Notes under the pieces: model-generated
Seen by the model: only the letters and a program-made list of their open reading frames with translations
Told to the model about the DNA's origin: nothing
Database searches by the model: none
Made by a program: the position numbers and the translations under genes
Assembly: GCF_004833285.1 (NCBI RefSeq)
Contig: NZ_STFG01000014.1
Location: 43,572-99,100 of the forward strand
DNA from: Lampropedia puyangensis
GTDB lineage: Bacteria; Pseudomonadota; Gammaproteobacteria; Burkholderiales; Burkholderiaceae_C
Length of the DNA stretch: 55,529 nucleotides
Direction: 5' to 3'
Part shown: one piece after another, positions 20,231 to 30,928 of the stretch
How positions within the stretch are numbered: the stretch's first letter is position 1
Layout of the letters: every line of letters starts with the position of its first letter

Positions 20231-21727
20231 ATGACTGCAAAACTCATCAACGGCTACGAAGTCGTCATCGGCTTTGAAACCCACGCCCAACTGGCCACCA
20301 ACAGTAAAATTTTCAGCCGCGCCGCCATCGGTTTTGGTGCCGAGCCCAATACCCACACCAGCGTGCTCGACTGCGCCTTGCCCGGCACCTTGCCGGTGAT
20401 GAACAAGCACGCAGTGGCCCATGCCATTCGCTTAGGCCTAGCGCTGGGAAGCCACGTCGCGCCCGTGAGTATTTTTGCGCGCAAAAACTACTTCTACCCT
20501 GATTTGCCCAAGGGCTACCAGATCAGCCAGTTTGAAATTCCCGTCGTGCAAGGCGGCGAGGTCAGCTTCTTCTTGGGCGATGAGAAGAAAACCGTGCGCC
20601 TGGTGCGCGCCCACCTGGAAGAAGATGCGGGCAAATCCGTGCACGACCAATTCCCCGGCGAGTCTGGCATTGACCTGAACCGCGCTGGCACGCCGCTGTT
20701 GGAAATCGTCACCGAGCCCGATATCCGCTCGACCGAAGAAGCCGTGGCCTACGCGAAAGAACTGCACAAAATCGTCACCTGGATTGGCATTTGCGACGGC
20801 AATATGCAAGAGGGCAATTTCCGCTGCGACGCCAACGTCTCGGTGCGCAAACCGGGCCAGCCACTGGGCACGCGCCGCGAGATCAAAAACCTCAACAGCT
20901 TTCGCAATATGCAAATTGCGATCGACTACGAAATCCGCTGGCAGATCGAGCAAATCGAAGACGGCTACGACATTCAACAAGCCACTGTCTTGTTCAACCC
21001 CGACACGGGCGAAACCCGCGCCATGCGCACCAAGGAAGACAGCGCAGATTACCGCTACTTCCCCGACCCGGATCTGCCCCCACTGGTGATCGCGCCGGAA
21101 TGGGTTGAACAAGTCAAGGCCGAGATGCCCGAATTGCCACGTCAAATGGCCGAGCGGTTTGTGCGTGACTTTGGCTTGCCGGAATACGACGCCACCACGC
21201 TTACCCAAAGCCGCGCCATGGGCGCGTATTTTGAAGAAGCCGCCAAACTCAGCGGCCAAGCCAAACTGGTCAGCAATTGGATCATGGGTGAAGTTTCACG
21301 TCGTTTGAACAGCGAAGAAGTCGCCATCGAAACCGCACCAGTCCAACCCCCACAATTGGCCGCCTTGATTGGCCGCATCGTCGACAACACCATCAGCAAC
21401 AACGCCGCCAAACAGGTGTTTGATGAGTTCTGGGTGACTGGAAACGTGTCCCTCGGACAAATAATTGTGTCTGGCAGTATTGAAGTTGATGCACAAAAGC
21501 AGGTCGATGCCATCATCGAAGCCAAAGGCCTCAAGCAAATGAACGACACCGGCGCGCTGGAGGCCATCATCGACGAAGTGATCGCCAACAACGCCGCCAA
21601 CGTCGAACAATACCGCGCAGGCAAAGACAAAGCCTTCAACGCGTTGGTGGGTCAGGTGATGAAAGCCAGCAAAGGCAAGGCCAATCCGGCGCAGGTGAAT
21701 GAGTTGTTGAAGAAAAAATTAGGTTGA
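20231..21727 (+). CDS. gatB: Asp/Glu-tRNA amidotransferase subunit B
   Basis: The 498-residue product carries the kinase-like catalytic domain that phosphorylates and amidates the mischarged aminoacyl-tRNA, followed by a helical segment and a YqeY tail that contacts tRNA. It begins with [13 protein letters not shown] and contains [12 protein letters not shown] and His-Leu-Glu-Glu-Asp-Ala-Gly-Lys, all diagnostic. It ends only 6 bp before the foreign-looking SIR2-domain gene. Confidence 0.96.
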
Positions 21728-21733
21728 TTTTTT

Positions 21734-23236
21734 ATGAAAATCCAAGAGTTTCTCGGAAGATATAAAAACCATCCGATTATTTTCATTGGAAGCGGTATGA
21801 GTCAGCGCTATCTAACTGGTTCGTATGGTTGGTATGCATTGCTGGAAAAAGTAGCACTAGACGTCTTTCCTAATGACGAACCTTTTTTAGACCTTAAAGC
21901 GCAATGCACAACAGGAGATGATGTTGATTTGCCGTTGCTTGCTGAGAAGCTAGAAAAAGCTTTTGACGATGTTCTTAGTAAGGATAGGAATGGTGCATTC
22001 TCAAATATCAATGAAAAATTTTATGGCCTACAGAGAAATGGAGTTTCGACGACTAGATTTAAAATATACATAGCTCATTTATTGTCTGACTGTAATTTTA
22101 TTGAAGGTAAAGAACAAGAACTGGCAGAGCTTAGAGGGGCCTTGAAAAATATATCGGCAGTCATAACAACAAATTACGACATTTTGTGTGAAAAAATATT
22201 TGATTTCCAGCCTCTTGTTGGGAATGAAATCCTTTTGAGTAACCCTTATGGGTCAATATACAAAATTCATGGAAGCATAGAGAGGCCGGAGTCAATAATA
22301 ATTACAAAAAGAGATTACGATAAATTCAAAAATAAGTATGAGCTAATAAGGGCGCAGCTGTTATCTTTATTCATACATAATCCAATTATATTTTTCGGAT
22401 ACTCTATTGGAGATGAAAACATTAGGGCAATATTGACAACAATATTTTCTTATATACCTGCAAAATCAGATGAGGCTGAAAAAATTCGCGCTAATTTTTT
22501 ATTGGTTGAACGCGCTAGCGGTGGGGCTTCTGATATCGTTTTGGATCATGATGTTGTTATAGATGGCGGCATTAATGTAAAAATCAATAAAATTAGAACT
22601 GATAATTTTACAAAGATATATCAATCCATCGGATCTCTGCAGCTTCCAGTTTCTGCCATGGATATTAGAAAAGTTCAGAATATAGTAAAAGAGATTATTG
22701 CAGGTGGCGATATAAAAGTCAGCGTAGCTGATGATATTGATGAAATTAAAAATGGAGACAAAATAGTCGCAATAGGTTCGGTTCATAAAATAAAATATGA
22801 ATACCATAATGAGACTGATCTTATTTCTAATTATTTCAGTATAATTTCATCGAAAAATATGGCGATCGTTGGCATCTTGGATAAATTAACCATTCCAAAA
22901 ACCAGATGGTTTCCTGCGTTTGGGTTTTCCAATCTAAATAACAGTATTGAATGCAGCGAAAAACTAAAGAGAAATATTTTTAACAAAATAGAAAGTCACT
23001 ACAATTCCATCGTTCCATCTTCCAAAAAATCATTTAAATCAATTTCAGCAATAATAGCAAATCAATCCATCTCAGATACAAATAAAGCTGACTGTATATT
23101 TTATAATTTTTACAAGGGTGCAATTAATATAAATGATCTAGAGGTTTATTTGAAAACCGGAGGCCTTTCAGGAACAAAATACAAGATGTTGCTGTGTATT
23201 TATGACTACAAAAAATATGGAGTCGGGTACTCATGA
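21734..23236 (+). CDS. SIR2-like (SIR2_2) domain protein, candidate antiphage NADase
   Basis: The 500-residue product has an N-terminal SIR2-like fold. Visible motifs are Ile-Gly-Ser-Gly-Met-Ser (19-23 region, nucleotide loop), Thr-Thr-Asn-Tyr-Asp (145-149), Lys-Ile-His-Gly with His179 as the likely catalytic residue, and Phe-Gly-Tyr-Ser-Ile-Gly-Asp-Glu-Asn (221-229), characteristic of the SIR2_2 branch common in defence proteins. The zinc cysteines of true sirtuin deacetylases are absent. Residues from about 265 to 500 match nothing I can name and are a candidate sensor or oligomerisation region. The gene is strikingly AT-rich against its neighbours. It starts 6 bp after gatB, and its stop shares ATGA with the metN start. 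No TIR, HerA, Argonaute or STAND partner is adjacent. NAD+ depletion during infection is inferred from the family, not shown. Confidence 0.85.
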
Positions 23237-24036
23237 TCAATATCAATGTTATTGACGTAGAGTCTGTTAGCAAACGCTTCGATCTCCCCGATGGCCGCAC
23301 TTTTGATGCCGTCAAATCCGTGTCTCTACAAATCCCCAAAGGCAGCATTTACGGCCTGATTGGCCAAAGCGGCGCAGGCAAATCGACTCTCTTGCGCATC
23401 ATCAATTTGCTAGAGCGCCCTGACAGCGGGCGTGTGGTGGTGGATGGGCAGGATTTAACGGCTTTGCCCAAATCGCAACTGCGCCAGGCGCGGCAGAACA
23501 TCGGCATGATTTTTCAGCAGTTCAATTTGCTGCAAAACGCCACGGTGTTTGAGAACGTCGCCTTTCCGCTGAGTCTGCATGGCAAGCGCAGCAAGCAAGA
23601 CATTGCGGTGCGCGTGGCCGAGTGCTTGGCCTTGGTGGGCTTGACAGAGAAAGCGCAAAGCTACCCCGCGCAGCTCTCGGGTGGACAAAAGCAGCGCGTG
23701 GCGATTGCGCGTGCTTTGGCGCCGCGCCCACAGGTGATGCTGTGCGATGAACCCACGTCTGCCTTGGATACCGGCACCACACGCACGGTGTTGCAAACGC
23801 TGCGCGAAATCAATGAAAAGCTGGGCGTGACGATTGTGATCGTGACCCATGAATTGGCGGTGGTGCAAGACCTGTGCGACCGCGTGGCAGTGGTGGAAGG
23901 CGGTGAAGTGGTAGAAGAATTTGCCGTAGCCGATGAAACTACCCCGCGCCATAGTGCATTGGGCAAAGAACTGCTTTTAGAGCAGCAGCGCCAGCATGTG
24001 TTGCGTGATTGGGAGGCGCAGCAGCCAGTGGTTTGA
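23233..24036 (+). CDS. metN: Methionine ABC transporter, ATP-binding protein
   Basis: The 267-residue ATPase powers methionine import with MetI and MetQ. It has Walker A Gly-Gln-Ser-Gly-Ala-Gly-Lys-Ser, Q-loop Met-Ile-Phe-Gln-Gln-Phe-Asn-Leu-Leu, signature Leu-Ser-Gly-Gly-Gln, Walker B [11 protein letters not shown], and His-Glu-Leu. It appears shorter than typical 340-residue MetN because the C-terminal regulatory ACT-like (NIL) domain is missing. Methionine feedback inhibition through that domain is therefore unlikely. The ATG overlaps the stop of the SIR2 gene. The nearest ribosome site (GGAG at about 23219) lies inside that gene. Confidence 0.92.
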
Positions 24037-27748: not shown

Positions 27749-28843
27749 TTAGCGCAGCACTTTGGAAGGCACTTCGTGCGTGAGTTGCAGCATGCCGTCG
27801 AGGATGAAGAAGTGGTCATCAAAAAAGCGCTCTGGCATGTCGCCCAACTCGCTGATGGGCACCCACAAAGCGGCTTTGGCATCGTCTGCGCCCAGCACTT
27901 TGGGCAAGGCGCCGTAGCCTAAATCAAAGTGAAAGACGTGTGTGACCGTGCGCCCGCGCAGGCTGCGGTCGGGGTGGTCAAATACGCGGCTGGTGCGCAG
28001 CGCTTGGCGCCAGGTGTCGTCGCTGATGTCCAGAGAAGTTTCTTCACGCAGCTCGCGCAGGCATGACTGCCACAGCGTATCGCGTGGTTCCAGATAGCCG
28101 CCAGGCAAGGCATACAAGCCTTTGCCAGGCATTTGCCCGCGCTCGACCAGCAGCACATGCCCCTGGCATTGCACCAATGCGTCAACCGTGATGAACATCG
28201 GCGGGTAGGGGGCACTGGCCCATGACTGGTGGTAGCTTTTAAGCATGTGCCATTCTTGTTGCAACTGCACAAAATTCGGATCTTGGCGCCATTGCAGCAG
28301 CCACTGCGCGACGGCTGCAGGCACATGCTCGAGCAGGATGGATTGCAGGCGGTCGAGCTCAGCGGTTGTGGCGTATTGTGGTGTAGCAAAGCACGCTTCG
28401 CGCACGACCGTGGCATCGGTGCCGCCTTGGCGGGGGTAGTTGAGCAATTCCCAATTGGGAAACTGGGCCAGATAGGCGCTACTGGCATCTTTGAAATGGC
28501 CAACCAAGGCCACGCGGGCGGCAGCGTCGGCATTGGCTTGCTGTGCCAACAGTCCATCGACCCCATTGCGCACGGCCTGAACCCAGCGTGCGTCATCGTA
28601 AAAATCGCGCATGGCAATGCATTGCACGCGTGCACGATCGGCCTCGGGTAAAGCCGCTAGCAGCATGTCGCGGCGTTCTTGCCAAGTGAATGGGTTTTTG
28701 GGTGTACGCGATTGGAAGGCAGAACCCAGCACAATGATGACGCGTTTGGCCGCATCAAGTGCATGCTGCACCATCGCCAAATGGCCTGAATGTGGCGGTT
28801 GAAAGCGGCCAATGAAAATAGCAGCGTCAAAAGGGTGTGGCAT
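27749..28843 (-). CDS. nadM: Bifunctional NMN adenylyltransferase / Nudix hydrolase
   Basis: The 364-residue product fuses two domains. The N-terminal nucleotidyltransferase (about 1-180) has Gly-Arg-Phe-Gln-Pro-Pro-His-Ser-Gly-His (HxGH) and makes NAD from NMN and ATP. The C-terminal Nudix domain (about 205-345) resembles the ADP-ribose pyrophosphatase type. Its Nudix box, starting Gly-Gly-Tyr-Leu-Glu-Pro-Arg-Asp, ends Arg-Glu-Leu-Arg-Glu-Glu. The first box Glu is Asp here, while the catalytic Arg-Glu...Glu-Glu core is intact. It lies downstream of pncB and elaA on the same strand, so this is probably an NAD salvage and ADP-ribose recycling operon. Confidence 0.92.
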   Translation of the reverse strand: MPHPFDAAIFIGRFQPPHSGHLAMVQHALDAAKRVIIVLGSAFQSRTPKNPFTWQERRDMLLAALPEADRARVQCIAMRDFYDDARWVQAVRNGVDGLLAQQANADAAARVALVGHFKDASSAYLAQFPNWELLNYPRQGGTDATVVREACFATPQYATTAELDRLQSILLEHVPAAVAQWLLQWRQDPNFVQLQQEWHMLKSYHQSWASAPYPPMFITVDALVQCQGHVLLVERGQMPGKGLYALPGGYLEPRDTLWQSCLRELREETSLDISDDTWRQALRTSRVFDHPDRSLRGRTVTHVFHFDLGYGALPKVLGADDAKAALWVPISELGDMPERFFDDHFFILDGMLQLTHEVPSKVLR

Positions 28844-28936
28844 GCAAATGTCCCTGAATATTTTTGTGCGCCACGGGTTCAGTGAGTTCCTGACTCATTG
28901 TGGCGTGCGGCAGTCGATTGTGCATGCGAAAACCCG

Positions 28937-29410
28937 CTATGGGTTGCTTCTTGGTTGACGGCACAGCATATCCACATGGGGAATGCCGTCCTCCAGGTAT
29001 TCAGGGCTGTCAGCGACAAATCCCAAAGAACCGTAAAACCCTTGTAAATGGCTTTGCGCACTGAGGCGAATGGGCTGACCAGGGTAGGTTCGCATAGTCA
29101 GGTCAATGGCCTCTTGCATCAGTGCGCGGCCATATTGGTGGGCACGAAAGGCGTGCGCGACCATGACGCGACCGATGGAGGGTTCGGCAAACTTCAGGTT
29201 GGGGCCAATGATGCGTGCGTAAGCAGCCAGCGCGCTGCCTTGCCAACCGAACAGGTGCAATGCACTGGCATCGTACGCATCGACTTCTTGATAGGGGCAG
29301 TTTTGCTCAACGACAAAGACGGCAATGCGTGCGCTAACCATTTCCAGCACTTGCGCAGGGGTGAGTTGCGCAAGTGGTGACCACGTAAAGTGCAGGGTGG
29401 GAGCGTTCAT
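28937..29410 (-). CDS. elaA: ElaA-type GNAT acetyltransferase
   Basis: The 157-residue GNAT protein matches ElaA: [13 protein letters not shown] near residue 28, Gly-Arg-Val-Met-Val, and the acetyl-CoA loop Arg-Ala-His-Gln-Tyr-Gly-Arg-Ala-Leu. The C-terminal [10 protein letters not shown] is also typical. The natural substrate of ElaA is not established. Its ATG overlaps the pncB stop by the ATGA arrangement, so it is translated with pncB. A link to NAD metabolism is positional only. Confidence 0.88.
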
Positions 29411-30627
29411 GGGCGTTTGACCTGAAAGACCTGCGTCAAGTAGTTGAGGAAGGTTTGGTCATCGCACAGCAATTTGCCGGGGGAATCGGAAATTTTGGCC
29501 ACGGGCTGGCCATTGGCACTGGTGAGCTTCATCACAATCGATAGCGGTTGCAGGCCCATGTCGTTGGTTAGCTGCGTGCCGATACCGAAGCCGCATTGCG
29601 TGCGGTCAGCAAAGTGGTGGTAAATGCGTAGCGCTTCGGGCACGTTGAGCCCATCTGAGAACACCAAGCGTTTGGTGTGTGCGTCAATGCGCAGCTTGGC
29701 GTAATGGGCCAAGGCTTTTTCGCCCCACGCAATCGGGTCGCCGGAGTCGTGGCGCAAACCATCGAACAGTTTGGCAAAGTATAGGTCGAAGTCTGCGATA
29801 AAAGCATCCATGCCGATGGTATCGGTCAAGGCAATACCCAAGTCGCCACGGTACTCTTGTACCCAGCTCTCCAGTGCCGCTTTTTGGAAGTTGCGCAACT
29901 GCACTACGCCCAGCGCCTGGTAGGTCTGAAAGTATTCGTGCGCCATGGTGCCAATGGGCACAATGTCTAAATCCATTGCCAAGAGCACGTTCGAGGTGCC
30001 TTTGAACCATTGCGGAGTTTCTTGTGCGAATGTCTTGACGACATGGTGTTGCCACTGGCGCGAATAACGCCGGCGCACACCAAAATCAAACAACTCAAAC
30101 GGGTGGCGCAGTGCGGCTTCGCGGCCAAGGGTTTTCAGTTCTTCGACCTTGATGGCAAGGCGCTTTTTACCTTCGGCAAGGGCAGCCTGTGCGTCGTATT
30201 GGCGGAAGTACAGCTCGTTGACGATGGCCAGCACAAAAATCTCGAACCCCATGACATGCACTTGTGGCCCTTTGGCCTCAATGTGCAACTCATCGCCTTC
30301 TGCATAGGCCTGAATAAAAGCCCGTTGGAATTGGAAGATGCGCAGGAAATCAATGAAGTCCGATTTGATAAAGCGCAACGCCCCCAAGTAGCGGAGTTCT
30401 TTTTCCGTAAACCGCAATTGGCACAAATGGTCCAGTTCCCGGTTGACGGCATCGAGCAGGCTGCTGAGTGGGAACTCGGGTTTTTTGCGGCAAACAAAAC
30501 GGTACTCCGCCTGCGTTTGCGGATGGCGATGCAGCATGGCCTGCCACATGGTGAATTTGTAGAGGTCAGTATCGAGCAGGCTGGTGATGATGGGTTCGTC
30601 AAACTGCTGGGCGCTTACTGTGTTCAT
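29407..30627 (-). CDS. pncB: Nicotinate phosphoribosyltransferase
   Basis: The 406-residue enzyme converts nicotinate, PRPP and ATP into nicotinate mononucleotide, the first step of nicotinate salvage to NAD. Typical segments are [11 protein letters not shown], [10 protein letters not shown], Gly-Thr-Ser-Asn-Val, Thr-Met-Ala-His-Glu and [10 protein letters not shown]. The ATG at 30627 follows GGAGAC. The frame extends to 30675 without support. First gene of pncB-elaA-nadM. Confidence 0.95.
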
Positions 30628-30928
30628 GGTGTCTCCGGCTTCCCCGGATGCATGCATGTTGATGGCGTAGTCCATACGTTTTGCATGCGGGAAAGAACAA
30701 TGGTGTCAATCGTGCGCCGCTAGTGTAGCCCGCAAGCGCGCAGCCGTTGGCCACGCGTGCCGATGGCTGGGCTGCAAAAGTGGCCGTTGTGGTAGCACTG
30801 CCCACTGGATCGGCTTGGCGTGCCCTGGCCGCAACGTGGTCACCTCTTGGGCTGGGGCATACCAGCATGGCTGCGCCTATAATTGGCGGTTTATCTGCGT
30901 TTTACTCTTTCTGTGTGGTTGAACTCGC
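30628..30928. other. Intergenic region with likely divergent promoters for pncB and the fmdB-like gene
   Basis: No gene is visible. A perfect TATAAT lies at 30878-30883, about 46 bp before the plus-strand start at 30929. No convincing -35 sits at the right distance. The pncB side contains only its ribosome site and no recognisable operator. Confidence 0.45.

Follow-up and report, generated by a model that had tools for sequence, protein, structure and literature searches.

A stand-alone SIR2-domain gene of Lampropedia puyangensis is, by profile, a member of the candidate family PDC-S25 and a probable one-protein NADase

Nicotinamide adenine dinucleotide (NAD)-cleaving enzymes (NADases) of the SIR2_2 type count among the main classes of immune effectors in bacteria and have human kin in FAM118. 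The gene described here is located in a 55,529-nucleotide stretch of the Lampropedia puyangensis genome (contig NZ_STFG01000014.1; the whole stretch is referred to as the window), where its open reading frame (ORF; 21734-23236, plus strand) is uninterrupted by stop codons and encodes 500 residues from its ATG. Its product, the window protein, is the sole SIR2_2 match in its own genome. Among described systems, ThsA of Thoeris shares the SIR2_2 NADase-type domain, equivalents of N112 and H152 and a length of about 480-500 residues, whereas DSR2 comprises about 1000 residues. According to the respective publications, the exchanges N112A and H152A abolished NAD+ cleavage by ThsA, the latter also disturbing the oligomer (PMC7272460), N133A or H171A lowered NAD+ cleavage by DSR2 (PMC10981675), and D255 of FAM118B is said to polarise its histidine (PMC12700824). 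By analogy, the window protein may function in the manner of immune NADases of the SIR2_2 type, DSR2 and ThsA being examples. Further SIR2_2 proteins, namely KomC, Avs5, SIR2-HerA and human FAM118B, differ from it in their partners or domains.

Within PADLOC-DB 2.0.0 (2023), PDC-S25, listed there as a candidate for phage defence, is represented by two full-length models. Residues 2-496 of the window protein matched positions 13-515 of the 517 positions of model PDLC04968 (E 5e-143), and the second model, PDLC04967, was matched with an E value of 1.3e-60. Since the PDC-S25 profile is matched end to end, the window protein is, by profile, a new addition to a family already catalogued as a candidate; the family itself is not new, and the undescribed system announced by the original prediction had already been listed. 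PDC-S25 resembles the window gene in protein length and in consisting of one gene ('S' presumably denotes single-gene), but the window protein is only about 43-50% identical to the intact members found (non-redundant set of 78 rows including the window). Neither a paper naming PDC-S25 nor one on stand-alone SIR2 was found in the literature searched, outside of which lay most subscription journals and all preprints. In the available parts of PMC11514479, PMC12322248 and PMC9122126, mention is made of other PDC systems, of SIR2-HerA or of SIR2-STAND, but not of PDC-S25. For the window protein, a function as a one-protein abortive-infection NADase of this family is proposed as probable, with its variable helical tail sensing the invader; the protein most likely destroys NAD to stop the phage-infected cell.

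Relatives were collected by means of a profile built on an alignment of ten members (A1), which was run over species genomes and viral contigs. Among 128 candidate stretches in the species genomes, 83 proved to be relatives, of which 80 were kept, and 37 of 133 viral candidates were added, yielding 117 loci from Bacteroidota, Bacillota, Pseudomonadota, Campylobacterota and five further host groups. In all of the 100 intact rows (97 different sequences, window included), G19, G21, S23, R25, N147, H179 and D227 were identical. On alignments in which positions were counted by hand, N147 was aligned with ThsA N112 and DSR2 N133, and H179 with ThsA H152 and DSR2 H171; by motif, D227 would, in our own reading, be the counterpart of FAM118B D255. 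The SIR2_2-type motifs quoted in the original prediction are present in the translation, and Pfam SIR2_2 (residues 142-243, E 5.8e-22) is the only Pfam match in the protein. The loss of the sirtuin zinc cysteines, likewise predicted, was confirmed: cysteines occur only at positions 58, 120, 152, 407, 454 and 488 and hence form no CxxC pair. A canonical zinc sirtuin deacylase was rejected, since the zinc-binding cysteine pairs are missing. More generally, an NAD-dependent deacylase or an ADP-ribosyl transferase with a housekeeping or regulatory role would also present the SIR2 fold, but the missing cysteine pairs and a patchy presence (matches in 16 of 399 genomes of the order and 13 of 299 genomes of the taxonomic family) make this explanation highly improbable.

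At least five of the 16 matching order genomes (E ≤ 1e-3) carry the PDC-S25-type family, the own genome included and one copy being broken; the remaining matches concern the SIR2 core and comprise one ThsA, one partial match on the PDC-S25 model and nine unscanned cases. Within the taxonomic family, a full-length match was obtained only in the own genome, and in a phylum sample the C-terminal profile matched in 3 of 398, again including the own genome, with one match apparently interrupted. Two members of the taxonomic family (L256, L257) encode another SIR2 protein with frames of 477 and 485 residues, which matches only residues 12-301 at approximately 30% identity. In 99 of the 117 loci the frame is intact and comprises 470 residues or more; the other 18 lack such a frame, at least four of these through a contig end. 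Such common damage, the long branch of the window protein (1.21) and its five departures (T107, A142, S181, S373, I415) from the 107 positions conserved at ≥95% in the other rows would suit a fading passenger, little expressed or no longer under selection in its own genome; the median is one departure, and five of the 78 rows depart more often (8 or 9 times). However, the intact 500-residue frame and the retention of the catalytic residues and of 102 of the 107 conserved positions speak against decay, which is accordingly given a small likelihood. One relative (L254, 1492-2939) is apparently broken by a transposase insertion, only its C-terminal part remaining as an ORF, and Candidatus Fukatsuia symbiotica, an insect symbiont, carries two separate copies (L098, L102), neither of them intact at full length.

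The SIR2 fold reaches to about residue 305, so the unrecognised part comprises about residues 306-500 and not 265-500; the boundary given by the original prediction was off by approximately 40 residues. That the C-terminal half is unrecognised was borne out, since only weak, non-significant Pfam matches (best E for the window protein 0.046, under the family cut-off) and no significant PDB match were obtained. Moreover, of the PDB chains retrieved with the family profile (E ≤ 1), none showed a match in the C-terminal part, and Avs5 and SIR2-HerA were absent from these chains. The C-terminal part was predicted to be all-helical. In the aligned relatives, the per-residue difference in the stretch 401-480 was 2.4 times that of the SIR2 domain, and this fast-changing stretch suggests a DSR-like role as sensor of a phage protein. 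Residues 306-358 are conserved across phyla, yet were modelled with low confidence in both structure models; folding of this linker may require an oligomer or a ligand.

An effector of the Thoeris type, activated through a nucleotide signal whose producing enzyme is encoded elsewhere, would have the catalytic domain in common with the window protein. ThsA, however, has a SLOG (STALD) C-terminus, and comparison of the C-terminal profile with this part gave an hhalign probability of 0.1%, and the C-terminal part is predicted to be helical, as mentioned above; furthermore, the ThsB TIR partner (PF08937) was not matched in the own genome, the only one searched for it, other TIR families lying outside that search. 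This alternative is regarded as improbable. Membership in Thoeris ThsA was rejected on the missing SLOG and ThsB_TIR matches and on the gatB/metN flanks: ThsA models cover residues 139-239 of the window protein only, in contrast to a ThsA from the same order (L007), which matches full length (E 7e-202). DSR1/DSR2 membership was rejected as well, the protein being much shorter than these proteins of about 1000-1200 residues, as had been remarked originally, and NCBIfam Dsr2 covering residues 143-202 only (13.4 bits against a cut-off of 1400). SIR2-HerA, SPARSA and Avs5 were rejected based on the gatB/metN flanks, the lack of a HerA or pAgo neighbour and SIR2_2 as sole Pfam match.

The guanine-plus-cytosine (GC) content of the gene is 33.5% compared to 55.6% across the remaining window, in agreement with the predicted AT-richness, and the lowest-GC stretch of 1503 bp in the window starts at 21701 (50-bp steps; mean of all stretches 55.0%, standard deviation 3.8). 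Gene GC was below flank GC in 65 of 65 genomic loci in which the gene is intact and 4 kb or more of flanking sequence is present (means 30.0% and 40.2%). Low GC is thus a trait of the PDC-S25-type family beyond the window copy. The upstream gatB gene ends at 21727, 6 bp before the SIR2 start. On the other side, the MetN-like gene begins within the last 4 bp of the SIR2 gene, overlapping its stop, and MetI- and MetQ-like genes come next. In the congener G404 (L251), the order from gatA to aspS is the same without the SIR2 gene. Nucleotide similarity to this congener ends at 21725, two bases short of the gatB end, and restarts at 23258, 22 bp past the SIR2 stop; about 260 bp replace the gene there, including a 12-pair terminator-like hairpin. 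Three terminator-like sites were found in window positions 21400-23500, all on the minus strand. Seven of nine congeners searched have gatB, followed by metN in two of the seven; in none of the seven was a SIR2 gene found beside gatB (up to 1500 bp examined, 627 bp downstream in L116). At the site itself, neither a bracketing repeat nor an integrase or insertion sequence was found. By these comparisons, the gene is a lone and evidently horizontally acquired insertion. NAD-salvage genes (nadM-like/Nudix and pncB; 27749-30675, minus strand) are located downstream, at a distance of 4.5 to 7.4 kb from the NADase-type gene, a proximity considered coincidental because the SIR2-free congener shows the same order.

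A neighbourhood survey of the relatives revealed a mobile-element context with some defence genes. Eight phage records matched, of which four represent BK5-T, and a fifth distinct phage is unannotated. In all four distinct annotated phages the SIR2 gene adjoins the integrase, and in two it directly follows the CI repressor gene: the order is CI-SIR2-int in SVep1 and IPP23, SIR2-int in Javan227 and endolysin-SIR2-int in BK5-T. The IPP23 gene is split into two frames matching SVep1 residues 1-354 and 368-530 at 97-99%. With the second model, BK5-T ORF30 and the SVep1 and Javan227 proteins were assigned to PDC-S25 over their full length (E 7.8e-129, 1.8e-194 and 9.9e-196). In 12 of the 37 viral loci, the SIR2 gene is placed in an early operon and adjoins a gene of the single-stranded-DNA-binding type, which in one locus (L143) is 65% identical to bbp40 of BPP-1; in 11 of these 12 it lies upstream of the DNA polymerase gene, with a small ORF between in three. 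This position looks like a cargo hotspot within the replication operon. BPP-1 itself has a small ORF at the SIR2 position, whereas in Escherichia phage vB_EcoM-606R2 a different gene of 630 bp, on the minus strand, takes this place and the polymerase is followed by a TIR-like gene.

Among 72,556 plasmid records, 10 carry the gene with a coverage of at least 80%, one being a chromosome-sized N. gonorrhoeae record; carriers include a 5.6-kb Pantoea plasmid and one of Pectobacterium, on which ToxN/AbiQ lies 726 bp upstream. Members on plasmids of Peribacillus, Carnobacterium, Cytobacillus, Pantoea, Cronobacter, Pectobacterium, Halobacillus and others, together with the replication-operon loci, would also be in line with defence against plasmids or rival mobile elements, or with stabilisation of the carrier, instead of defence against phages, the output still being NAD loss. 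The integrase-side position in the four annotated phages, in two directly after the repressor, rather fits phage exclusion, and the neighbour clusters listed contain no recurring antitoxin-like partner; this alternative is considered rather unlikely. The original statement that no partner gene exists was upheld, given the gatB and MetN-like flanks and the result that, among the neighbour clusters listed (BLASTP, E ≤ 1e-8, which very diverged partners may escape), no adjacent partner recurred in the 117 loci except in the 12 loci of one phage type.

Table 1. Coordinates of the SIR2 gene, its domains and flanks in the window, and of phage loci with relatives
Feature	Position	Strand	Remarks
PDC-S25-type SIR2 gene	21734..23236	+	ATG start, whole ORF with stop, 500 aa
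SIR2 (NADase-type) domain, residues 1-305	21734..22648	+	candidate catalytic N147, H179, D227
Conserved linker, residues 306-358	22649..22807	+	low confidence in both structure models
Helical C-terminal domain, residues about 359-496	22808..23221	+	confident prediction; 401-480 is the protein's most variable part
gatB, left flank	20231..21727	+	NCBIfam E 5.9e-227
MetN-like ABC ATPase, right flank	23233..24036	+	best NCBIfam match MetN, E 7e-95, under model cut-off
Streptococcus/Lactococcus phage loci, PDC-S25-type gene by integrase	L300 4200-7909; L301 2082-5477; L302 2474-5560; L028 5962-9318		
Early-operon viral loci (BPP-1-like phages)	L141-L145, L155, L157, L158, L162, L168, L172, L173		

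For the proposed one-protein NADase, the SIR2 domain (residues 1-305) would act as effector, hydrolysing NAD+ via N147 and H179, and the C-terminal part would hold it off before infection, possibly within an oligomer. The trigger would be direct contact of the helical domain 359-496, chiefly of the fast-changing stretch 401-480, with a product of the invader, whereupon NAD+ would fall and the cell would stop ahead of phage production, which would afford protection from the phage. Defence-type context among relatives offers a coarse sign only: 146 immediate neighbour ORFs matched 333 PADLOC families at E ≤ 1e-8 compared to 145 among 146 far-end ORFs (drawn from the 212 present at the outer ends of these genome loci), values that count redundant models and not proteins, and five of nine large neighbours, chosen by size, are restriction or helicase defence-type proteins. 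Several points weigh against the proposal. The far-end genes also include defence genes, and the near/far contrast is without a Pfam control for the far set; when the nine large neighbours were scanned singly, the other four gave no match to a PADLOC family at E ≤ 1e-30. The window copy has housekeeping genes on both sides and lies in neither a defence island nor a prophage, and promoter-like sites at the SIR2 region were at chance level (7 compared to 6.6 in shuffles), so that expression may depend on the gat operon, with which the gene is presumably now read. Furthermore, the conserved linker has no explanation in the proposed mechanism, and no experiment on PDC-S25 was found in the literature searched.

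Taken as a whole, the original prediction holds for an acquired, partnerless SIR2 NADase-type effector with its key residues kept, and fails for its undescribed status and the boundary at residue 265. As far as the searches show, the contributions made here are the placement in PDC-S25, the map of domains, the contexts in phages and operons and the contrast in rates. Because PDC-S25 had already been listed as a candidate, the analysis mainly ranks the family as worth testing, maps its domains and ties its relatives to phage integrase and repressor neighbourhoods. In a wider sense, PDC-S25 may constitute a widespread one-protein immune NADase, borne by chromosomes, plasmids and phages with an integrase, whose C-terminal helical sensor has a fold absent from solved structures and keeps pace with a phage protein by rapid evolution, a proposal whose chances are placed slightly below even. 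If true, this partnerless protein of 500 residues, with its unmatched and rapidly changing C-terminus, would represent a small, tractable model for the combination of invader sensing and effector response within one protein.
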